Positions 8,678-30,813 of a DNA stretch of 40,384 nucleotides are shown here, piece by piece. The stretch lies in assembly GCF_000332355.1 (NCBI RefSeq), contig NZ_KB235958.1, positions 2,701,250 to 2,741,633 on the forward strand, given 5' to 3'. The DNA comes from Baaleninema simplex PCC 7105. Lineage in GTDB: Bacteria; Cyanobacteriota; Cyanobacteriia; Cyanobacteriales; Geitlerinemataceae. Within the stretch, counting starts at the first letter, position 1, and every line of letters begins with the position of its first letter. The notes below the pieces were generated by a model. It saw only the letters and a list, made by a program, of their open reading frames with translations, searched no databases and was not told the DNA's origin. Both the position numbers and the translations under genes were made by a program.

Positions 8678-8797
8678 GATCGCGTTCTCCTGAAAAGTAT
8701 CGACCTCGAAATGGCGATCGAGGTCTGCGATCGCGGCGTCGATCTATAAAATTGACAGCAAGAACGGGAACAGTTGCAAGCTGAAGGATTGGCGATT
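8678..8797 (+). pseudogene. Scrambled duplicate of the uma2 3' end and peroxiredoxin-like gene
   Basis: Positions 8678-8720 are identical to 12793-12835 (3' part of the Uma2 gene). Positions 8735-8758 match the end of that gene and its stop, with two substitutions. Positions 8761-8797 match 13063-13099 inside the peroxiredoxin-like gene with one mismatch. About 190 bp of the intact locus (12874-13062) is missing. Between the blocks, a stretch of about 19 bp is the reverse complement of its counterpart, a micro-inversion bounded by CGAT/ATCG. No open frame is retained. The fragment runs straight into the truncated MITE at 8793 through the shared string CGATT. Confidence 0.85.
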
Positions 8798-8895
8798 AGC
8801 ACTTCCGGTATAAGATCCCCGGCATCTCCAAGATGCCGGGGATCTGGAAATTGAGTGCGCCCAATTCGATGAATTTACATTTTTGAGATGCACCC
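8793..8895. mobile_element. Truncated MITE copy (left end missing)
   Basis: These 103 bp are identical to 30259-30361, the right two thirds of the complete 152-bp MITE at 30210. It holds a perfect 13-bp stem, GATCCCCGGCATC / GATGCCGGGGATC, with a 5-nt loop (8814-8844) and ends with the terminal repeat TGAGATGCACCC. The left terminal repeat is absent and is replaced by the duplicated uma2/peroxiredoxin fragment. No target duplication can be recognised because one end is lost. Confidence 0.85.
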
Positions 8896-10225: not shown

Positions 10226-11054
10226 TATAAAGAAAAAATTAAGAGGTGAGGCGTTTGAGCATCAGAGCTGTCATGGCTTGATATACAAAGCACTCACTCA
10301 TCTGAGGAAGACGCTCGTAATCCTTACTCAAACGTCGGTGCTTTCCTAACCAAGCTAAGGTGCGTTCGACGACCCAGCGTCTTGGCAAAACGACAAAACC
10401 CGGTTCAGTCCGTTCGACGACCTCCAACTCCAAGTCACAGCCTTGAGCGACTCGCTGTAACCTCTCACCACGATAGCCTTGGTCAGCCCAGACCTGCCCC
10501 AGAGTTGGCTCACACCAGGTACTCTCCGTCAGCAGCATTCGGGCCGAGGTGGAATCGGCGAGATTCGCGGCATGAGCGAAGACTACAATTATCAATCCCA
10601 GGGTATCTACCAGGATGTGTCGCTTGCGGCCGTTGACTTTCTTTCCGCCGTCGTACCCTCGGCCTGTACCCCCCACGTCTGTCGTTTTGACCGATTGACT
10701 GTCAATGATGCCAGCGCTGGCTTTTGCCCCTCGCTGTTTTTTTTTCGCAGCGCCTCTCTCAAGTGGTCGTGGATATACTGCCACACCCCTTTCTTCTCCC
10801 ATTTACGCCAATATCCATAGACGGTTTTTGCGGGGGGGAAGTCATGGGGCAAGTATTCCCAGGCACAGCCCGTTCGACACACGTATCGGATGCCGTTGTA
10901 GACTGCCCTCATATCCACGGTTCTTTTTCTGCCTCGACCTGATTCTGACTTAGCTCGAGGCAGAAGGGGTTCCACGATTTTCCATTCGGCGTCACTCACG
11001 TCGCTGGGATATCCTTGTCGAGTCATGGCTCTGTCTAACTGGCTTCTTCTCTTT
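10226..11054 (-). mobile_element. IS5-family insertion sequence (about 829 bp)
   Basis: The element contains a two-frame IS5-type transposase and interrupts the GmrSD-like gene. The boundaries were placed by restoring the host reading frame: TATC (GATA on the coding strand) occurs at both 10222-10225 and 11055-11058 as a candidate 4-bp target duplication. The terminal inverted repeats are imperfect (AAAGAGAAGAAG against TATAAAGAAAAA), so the ends are uncertain by a few bases. The GC-rich element contrasts with its AT-rich host gene. Confidence 0.8.
10239..11026 (-). CDS. IS5-family transposase, two overlapping frames (probable -1 frameshift)
   Basis: Frame A (11026-10607) begins MTRQGYPSDVSDAEWKIVEP and carries the IS5 N-terminal domain. 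Frame B (10802-10239) carries the catalytic core: IIDSQSVKTT (first Asp), WADQGYRGERL (second Asp) and RRWVVERTLAWLGKHRRLSK (Glu). The frames meet at a run of nine A on the coding strand (10737-10745), where LRKK in frame A becomes KKQRGAKASAG in frame B after a one-base backward slip. Many IS5 relatives make their transposase by such slippage, so the element may be functional rather than broken. Confidence 0.85.
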
Positions 11055-29460: not shown

Positions 29461-30096
29461 ATGCAGAATTTCGATGTCAAACCCATGACAGACTTCCTCA
29501 GATCGGCGGCTTTACTCCTCGTCCTGCTGAACCCATTTCTCGTCATTATCTATATCATCGACGTCGTGCAAAAACTGTCGCTGAAACCCTTCACCTTGGT
29601 TTTGATGCAGGCGGGTTTAATTTCCACGGCAGTCTTTTGCTGTTTTGCCATTCTCGGCGACGCCATATTTTCCCACGTTTTACAGGCAAATTTCGCCTCG
29701 TTTCAGATTTTTGGAGGAATTGTGTTTCTCCTTATCGGTCTTGAATTTGTATTTCAAGGTCCGACGGCAATTTCTATTTTACGAGGCGAATCGAAAAACC
29801 TCGCGGGGGCGATCGCCATGCCCATCTTTATCGGGCCGGGAACCATTAGCGCCAGTGTAGTCATCGGGGAACGACACGATCCCCTTGTCGCTTGCATGGC
29901 GGTAGTCGTGGCTGTTTGTGTCTCTATCGCATTTGTCGTCCTGCTCAAGTTAGCCCACGATCTCGTTCGTCCCCATCGAGAACCCTTCATCGAACGGTAC
30001 ATCGAAGTGGTCGGACGAATTGCCGCTTTGTTTATCGGCACGATTTCGGTGGAAATGATTATGCAGGGACTCATCGTGTGGTTCGAGAAGTTTTGA
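29461..30096 (+). CDS. MarC-family integral membrane protein
   Basis: The 211-aa protein has six predicted membrane helices. It shows the MarC/UPF0056 pattern: LLVLLNPFLVIIYIIDVVQK, FQIFGGIVFLLIGLEFVFQG, GAIAMPIFIGPGTISASVVI and RIAALFIGTISVEMIMQGL. MarC was first linked to multiple antibiotic resistance, but its transport role remains unclear. Two start codons are possible (29461 and 29485). Its 3' end abuts a truncated xisI in the opposite orientation. Confidence 0.88.
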   Translation: MQNFDVKPMTDFLRSAALLLVLLNPFLVIIYIIDVVQKLSLKPFTLVLMQAGLISTAVFCCFAILGDAIFSHVLQANFASFQIFGGIVFLLIGLEFVFQGPTAISILRGESKNLAGAIAMPIFIGPGTISASVVIGERHDPLVACMAVVVAVCVSIAFVVLLKLAHDLVRPHREPFIERYIEVVGRIAALFIGTISVEMIMQGLIVWFEKF

Positions 30097-30104
30097 GGAT
30101 TCGC

Positions 30105-30173
30105 CGATGGAGGGGTGGCGTAATCTTCCAAGATTTCAACAACGATTTTACGGTAAATCTCTAGTTTATCCAT
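30105..30173 (-). pseudogene. xisI: xisI, 5' stump only
   Basis: The frame starts MDKLEIYRKIVVEILEDYAT, the recognisable beginning of XisI proteins, which are about 110 aa. After about 23 codons the similarity ends and the sequence becomes the 3' flank of marC. Its ATG overlaps the end of the xisH frame, as is usual for xisH-xisI pairs. The remaining 80% of the gene is deleted. Confidence 0.8.
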
Positions 30174-30739
30174 TGTTCGATAACCTCTTGTTCTGGATTA
30201 TAGGTGATGGGGTGCATCTCACTTTTGCAAAAACATCAGTTTGGGGTGGCAAAATTCCCGATTAGCACTTCCGGTATAAGATCCCCGGCATCTCCAAGAT
30301 GCCGGGGATCTGGAAATTGAGTGCGCCCAATTCGATGAATTTACATTTTTGAGATGCACCCTAGGTGATGAGCTTTAGTTGTTGTTCTCCGATGATTTCT
30401 TGAATAAGAGGGCGACAAAAAAACGTTGAATAGATTTCGGTGGAAATAGCAAGATATAAAACGAGATCGGGTTCAACTTGACGGAGACTAAATCGATAGT
30501 TAATAAATTGGCCGAGTGCGGTATGAAATTCCGAAATTGCTGAATCCCCAACGAAGCTTTTGATTTCAACTGCAATTTTTTTGGCGATCGCGCTCGGCAG
30601 CGATGAGGCGATCTGCTCCAAGGTCAATATATATCTCGTAGTCGTTGAGGTCGAAATGTAAAGGATCGTGAGTAATTATCCAGCCATCTTTCTGGAGAAC
30701 ATTCTTAACTGAATCATGAAAAAGGTCGCGGGTTTGCAT
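30161..30739 (-). pseudogene. xisH: xisH, broken by frameshift and MITE insertion
   Basis: The gene starts at ATG 30739 with MQTRDLFHDSVKNVLQKDGW and IDLGADRLIAAERD. It then loses frame at a run of seven A (coding strand, 30576-30582), after which the correct sequence resumes as KKIAVEIKSFVGDSAISEFH and LGQFINYRFSLRQVEPDLVL. The tail ...QLKLIT is cut by the MITE at 30361. On the far side of the MITE (30209-30161) the frame continues as TYNPEQEVIEQWIN and a stop, completing a normal XisH of about 140 aa. XisH was named as an fdxN-element excision controlling factor; its VEIK motif suggests a PD-(D/E)XK fold. Two independent lesions make this a pseudogene, unless the A7 tract is a sequencing error or slippage site. 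Confidence 0.9.
30210..30361. mobile_element. Complete 152-bp MITE with 9-bp target duplication in xisH
   Basis: The element has perfect 12-bp terminal inverted repeats, GGGTGCATCTCA and TGAGATGCACCC, and is flanked by TAGGTGATG on both sides (30201-30209 and 30362-30370). Removal of the element and one repeat restores the XisH reading frame. Inside is a perfect 13-bp hairpin, GATCCCCGGCATC / GATGCCGGGGATC. The left end GGGTGCATCTCACTTTTGCA matches the end of the ISKra4-type element at 40236 (GGGTGCATCCCAGTTTTGCA) with two differences. It has no coding capacity. The 103-bp right part is identical to 8793-8895. Confidence 0.93.
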
Positions 30740-30813
30740 ATCGGTCGGGTTTTACAAATTGGCGCACAACTTTTAGATCGACTTTTAGATCGAGATCGTT
30801 CGATTCTCGAACT

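Follow-up and report, generated by a model that had tools for sequence, protein, structure and literature searches.

What interrupts the 3' end of xisH in this genome, what moved the interrupting DNA there, and what did its arrival mean for the gene? The window, by which we mean the whole 40,384-nt stretch analysed here (C4:2701250-2741633 of a 6.15-Mb genome in 8 contigs), contains between two fragments of xisH a short element that had been predicted, from the letters of the sequence, to be a MITE. We conclude that it represents a recent MITE insertion into the xisH 3' end, the ends of which would be recognised by an ISKra4-family transposase acting in trans, a reading to which we assign a probability of roughly 93%. 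The features on which the argument draws are collected in Table 1.

Table 1. Features of the xisH-xisI locus and of the inserted element (window positions)
Feature	Position	Strand	Remark
marC	29461-30096
xisI remnant, first ~25 codons	30098-30173	-	sub-cut-off Pfam XisI match, E 0.014
xisH tail past the MITE, ITYNPEQEVIEQWIN then stop	30161-30208	-
Target-site duplication copy 1, TAGGTGATG	30201-30209	.	copies 100% identical
MITE, subfamily A, non-coding, 152 bp	30210-30361	+	152-bp identity with copies L002, L003 and L004
Left terminal inverted repeat, GGGTGCATCTCA	30210-30221	+
Perfect hairpin module, 33 bp, separate dispersed repeat	30279-30311	.	pattern at 110 genome places
Right terminal inverted repeat, plus strand reads TGAGATGCACCC	30350-30361	-
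Target-site duplication copy 2, TAGGTGATG	30362-30370	.	copies 100% identical
xisH middle part, second frame	30361-30588	-	Pfam XisH 1.7e-26 (ORF 30361-30627)
xisH N-terminal part, frame departs from XisH at an A7 run with an extra A	30566-30739	-	Pfam XisH 2.2e-19

The insertion at the tail of xisH

The anatomy of the element is as the original prediction described it in its main points, with TAGGTGATG repeated exactly on both sides and the outer 12 bp of the ends perfectly inverted; the inverted arms (30210-30245 and 30326-30361) extend to 36 nt at 72% complementarity. Among the ORFs listed, none of at least 50 aa lies wholly inside the 152 bp, as expected of the short non-coding element that had been proposed; a 52-aa frame at 30107-30265 enters from the flank, and the frame at 30361-30627 touches the last MITE base. 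The interior does contain a perfect hairpin with 15-nt arms (30279-30293 and 30297-30311), but this had been taken for a sign of a non-autonomous element and is not a MITE hallmark, being a separate repeat dispersed through the genome. The 170-bp stretch, folded as DNA, reaches -39.9 kcal/mol, shuffled sequences averaging -20.1 (z -6.4), and none of 200 shuffles did as well.

Insertion is also visible in the reading frame. The frames abutting the element read ITYNPEQEVIEQWIN and then stop on one side and end in QLKLIT and stop on the other, the TAG stop of the xisH middle part being composed of the last two duplication bases and the first MITE base. The claim that excision would rejoin a complete XisH tail is borne out by these matching sides and by the relatives: a scan for XisH ORFs covered 19 loci, 3 of which gave no ORF by the motif used, and in 15 of the 16 ORFs displayed the tail runs through uninterrupted (L153 stops early). 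Further copies with duplications exist, as described below, and neither of the findings that had been named in advance as counting against the prediction was made. An empty site at the same locus was not seen at the DNA level among the 59 genomes compared, of which only the window's own belongs to the genus. The DNA matches to xisH in relatives are 65-96% identical, cover partial stretches and come from no member of the same genus, and therefore allow no same-site comparison.

We also weighed whether the 152 bp might serve the xisHI operon as a structured RNA or regulatory hairpin and not be a transposon at all. The internal hairpin is indeed strong, but dozens of copies with target duplications lie elsewhere, 15 of the 16 XisH ORFs of relatives have the uninterrupted tail, and an Rfam search of 29900-30800 gave a single match, mir-492 at E 0.089, whose 19.7 bits fall far short of the gathering score (76); this explanation is barely credible. 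An assembly artefact has just as little to commend it. High-copy repeats are prone to misjoining, but an exact 9-bp duplication together with a tail frame that matches on both sides could hardly have come from a misjoin, and the contig is 3.98 Mb long.

The xisH fragment that holds the element is, on the other hand, not otherwise intact. A second lesion shifts the frame: an A7 run contains an additional A, which could be either real or a sequencing error. The neighbouring xisI is truncated as well: its start overlaps the xisH end and its remainder is missing where it meets the end of marC, and the Pfam XisI match is weak (E 0.014 as a 28-aa fragment covering positions 1-24 of 110, 0.17 as the longer ORF, both sub-cut-off). 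The overlapping start has parallels among relatives, since in 15 loci shown xisI starts at -13, as in the window, in five (L152, L159, L160, L161 and L163) and at -31 in one (L167), the other nine giving none by the motif used. The xisH-xisI pair is, with its frameshift, MITE and truncated xisI, a dead remnant.

This raises the question of whether the MITE dealt the first blow to a working xisH or arrived in a locus that had already decayed, the latter being compatible with our main reading. We lean modestly towards late arrival. There are two other lesions, the extra A and the loss of xisI beyond about 25 codons, and the MITE copy in the window is young, given that it is identical to three others. 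Against this, the xisH coding sequence has no further stop besides the frame change and the MITE, so that the decay of xisH is young too, and the extra A may be a sequencing error.

Copies, target duplications and the dispersed hairpin

Counting the one in the window, near-full copies with 95-100% identity number at least 40 in the genome, a lower bound because scoring covered 40 of the 368 candidates from the first look. Exact pairs of the terminal inverted repeats (TIRs) number 57 at spans of 134-164 bp and 24 at spans of 104-134 bp, a 134-bp element at C4:889209 being counted in both, and the reversed-pattern control gave 0 in each case; they represent several subfamilies with common ends. 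A whole-genome search for copies and TIR pairs with zero in the controls rules out chance for the window element. The 28 copies of exactly 152 bp have a mean pairwise identity of 0.979 (lowest 0.928), and four of them, the window copy included, are identical.

For subfamily A we assembled 41 copies of 140-160 bp, with ends of at most 2 mismatches, that differ from one another when the element is taken together with its 20-bp flanks. Exact flanking duplications are present in 30 of the 41, of 8 bp in 19 and of 9 bp in 11, while 11 have neither; pairing the flanks at random gave a mean of 0.74 exact duplications, about what self-pairing alone produces. The check proposed with the MITE reading, a search for further copies and their flanks, accordingly gave dozens of copies with duplications. 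The 9-bp duplication is exact at the window copy, as claimed, but the family makes 8-bp duplications too, and more often, which makes 9 bp one of two duplication sizes and not the rule. At two of the 11 copies without duplication (L014 and L017) an exact 8-bp duplication flanks a longer pair of ends, which is what nesting of insertions would produce.

Several single copies merit mention. The window holds a second, left-truncated MITE copy at 8793-8895 (103 bp) in which the right end and the hairpin are intact. At L002 1504-1655 a MITE with a 9-bp duplication sits within the end of another MITE, a nested event, and the copy at L115 501-666 has a doubled 13-bp right end inside a single 9-bp duplication. 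The plasmid and phage collections searched contained no match at E 0.01.

Across the genome there are 110 places with the hairpin pattern. By our own count 54 of these have been sorted, 20 lying in subfamily A copies and 34 others having been fetched, and by reading we assign the 34 to subfamily A fragments or variants (3), to a second MITE family, D (14, two of them partial), and to places elsewhere (17). Five of these 17 have a left flank like that of A or D (L174, L178, L187, L196 and L201), and some hairpin copies are assignable to neither family. Family D, seen among L169-L202 in G000, contains the hairpin too, next to a left flank resembling that of A, and has ends (CTTAGTGGTGCAGAAAA) unlike those of A. 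It is 202 bp long in seven of the nine copies in which both ends were found, and those nine have an exact duplication of 9 bp in one case, of 10 bp in four and none exact in four. The hairpin is therefore an independent repeat that also rides inside a second MITE family.

Among the 59 genomes the pattern is present in seven (G000 with its 110, G047 18, G026 15, G023 9, G044 3, G050 3 and G002 1; the reversed-pattern control gave 0). In the hairpins listed from G023, G026, G044, G047 and G050 the arms are different yet complementary (GACTTCT with AGAAGTC), and hairpin pairing has thus been kept. The loop, for its part, exists in two orientations: in the 41 subfamily A copies it reads TTGGA in 21, the inverse TCCAA in 15 and another form in 2, with 3 unscored. 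Among 11 A copies identical outside the hairpin it is TTGGA in seven and TCCAA in four, and two family D copies (L185 and L197) that are alike outside the hairpin except at one base have opposite loops. The simplest reading of these flips is inversion of the palindrome centre, which we infer to have come about, probably, via template switching at the palindrome.

As a short palindromic dispersed repeat the hairpin resembles REP/REPIN and other palindromic repeats (PMC3116915 and PMC3733652), from which it differs in being carried in two MITE families with inverted ends.

Ends of the ISKra4 type

Which transposase might move an element without a gene of its own? The ISKra4 transposase model (NCBIfam NF033572) matches the genome at 50 places, 17 of them marked as over the cut-off. 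Nineteen longer elements (454-2246 bp) have ends at most 3 mismatches from those of the MITE and an exact duplication of 8 bp (10) or 9 bp (9), a count that has no denominator, as the output it comes from was limited to exact or nearly exact duplications. The 1178-bp element L078 has the 12-bp sequence of the MITE at both ends without a difference, and of 29 positions compared by eye between its right end and the left end of the MITE, 26 agree. None of the copies with the exact end is whole: the L078 transposase has one stop inside the ISKra4 match, that of L087 has three and that of L088 is partial; five copies of the L073-L077 type, which score alike, have no stop in the match and one base different in the 12-bp end (GGGTGCATCCCA). 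The ISKra4-family elements (NF033572) are thus like the MITE in having ends that read GGGTGCATCTCA or differ from it by 1-3 bases, with 8- or 9-bp duplications, and the 152-bp element is unlike them in having no transposase gene, with only the ends in common by eye.

The same association is found outside this genome. A scan of named genomes for the closest transposases confirmed 93 stretches, of which 80 loci were kept, all cyanobacterial by title except L264 and L265; these titles, together with the xisHI genes, point to a cyanobacterial source for the window as well. By a criterion that favours pairs with a duplication, a recognisable TIR pair is present at 33 of the 80 and at 47 there is none; an exact duplication, of 8 or 9 bp, accompanies 20 of the 33 pairs. 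The exact MITE 12-bp end stands on both sides at seven of the 33 (L209, L210, L211, L212, L241, L242 and L259), for instance with a 9-bp duplication in Moorena sp. SIO3H5 (L209) and an 8-bp one in Tychonema sp. LEGE 07203 (L211).

Elements of 358, 454, 510 and 658 bp that have lost internal parts and kept intact duplications look like intermediates linking the IS to the MITE. The window itself ends in such an element: from 40236 to the window end (L289 486-843), and continuing past it, lies an L073-type ISKra4 element reduced by internal deletion to 358 bp, its 8-bp duplication exact.

Matching ends together with the 8- or 9-bp duplication length make ISKra4 the likely source of the transposase. 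In the mechanism we propose, the 12-bp ends would be recognised by an ISKra4-family transposase supplied in trans, the element would be copied or cut out and then joined to a target cut with an 8- or 9-bp stagger, and fill-in of the staggered cut would give the flanking duplication. Both the role of an ISKra4 transposase and the copy from which it would come are inferred, as likely, from the sequences.

Alternatively, the MITE might be mobilised by a transposase of another family, such as IS4 or ISL3. An intact full-length ISKra4 transposase with the exact MITE 12-bp end was not found in the genome, other IS families are abundant (62 DDE_Tnp_1 matches), and a Microcystis MITE with 8-nt direct repeats has been placed with ISL3 by its authors (PMC11448079, in the passages considered). 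End sequence and duplication length, however, are both common to the ISKra4 elements and the MITE, and we consider a partner from another family quite improbable.

The partner search covered the DDE_Tnp_1 and ISKra4 models. IS4/DDE_Tnp_1 candidates were rejected: 30 of the 62 loci were fetched, and a TIR pair around the transposase occurs only in L063, where an IS4 element sits within another element that has TIRs, and in L069, whose ends are of the ISKra4 type of L079. We note that at L063 929-2410 the IS4-family transposase (NCBIfam 2.6e-86) belongs to an element inserted inside a copy with MITE-type ends. The window has its own DDE_Tnp_1 transposase frame of 187 aa at 10260-10724 on the minus strand; the genome holds three such similar matches, this one among them (L045-L047).

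Among published elements, the 187-bp MITE of Microcystis aeruginosa PCC 7806 is, in the passages of PMC11448079 considered, like the window MITE a high-copy cyanobacterial element with a stem-loop that is found inside genes, likewise with direct repeats (8 nt) and an IS partner identified by matching ends. Unlike the window MITE it has ends starting GGCTCTTCG and ISL3 as its proposed partner, and it is another family. Anabaena sp. 90 is described in passages of PMC3542288 as having 147 MITEs of 77-541 bp, 15 of them in disrupted ORFs; compared by description only, they differ from the window MITE, whose ends match ISKra4, in that their authors saw no resemblance to the ends of that genome's ISs (type II). 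MITEs are a well-known kind of element (PMC11448079, PMC3542288 and PMC10969869, as far as their passages go), and the present family, a MITE with ISKra4-type ends, is ordinary biology of that kind. In the titles and passages of the literature on ISKra4 or cyanobacterial MITEs, and on MITE plus xisH, we came across no account of the present family, and searches of main texts for the end and hairpin strings listed matches that are unrelated by title.

Common ends around different middles

The subfamilies differ in a particular way. Compared with 15 sister-subfamily copies, the MITE has 25-31 of its last 34 bases in common, and with the 10 sisters that have a CTTTT-type left end it has 32-34 of the first 38 in common, against 19-21 of 38, ungapped, with the five whose ATGG-type left end is one base longer. 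Over the middle 68 positions 11-20 agree ungapped, which is chance level, and the gapped score of one middle tested was lower than the shuffled mean. The subfamilies thus appear, from their common ends and different middles, as if the middle had been swapped. The same ends surround other middles in relatives, exact TIR pairs of 134-164 bp being found in six of the 59 genomes (G000 57, G053 27, G002 5, G007 4, G009 3 and G005 1).

Just inside the 12-bp left end, 27 of the 41 subfamily A copies read CTTTTGC and 10 read ATGAGTGC; forms similar to the latter (ATGCATGC) occur in G005, G007, G009 and G053 with other interiors. By eye, the alternative left-end form pairs with the end as an inverted repeat, and is perhaps a template-switch product.

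These patterns lead us to a tentative speculation, which we think less likely than not: ISKra4-type ends may serve as a reusable frame, beyond which the transposase would need little else, and new MITE families might arise by swapping the middle for a resident repeat, here a hairpin taken up by at least two families with different ends and with duplications of 8-9 and 9-10 bp, the hairpin loop inverting often. In G002, which belongs to another genus, the same 12-bp ends surround a related hairpin in elements of 212 bp (L206, without duplication) and 106 bp, and the pairing of ends and hairpin may therefore be old, not a fresh capture.

For the xisH locus, the insertion is a passenger in a dead gene pair or one among its several lesions. 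The element documents a MITE family of high copy number with a tie to ISKra4-type ends, in a single genome that holds the IS, internal-deletion derivatives and MITEs whose ends are common and whose middles differ. A hairpin common to two MITE families, with a loop that flips, further offers a natural data set on the replacement of MITE interiors and on the inversion of short palindromes.
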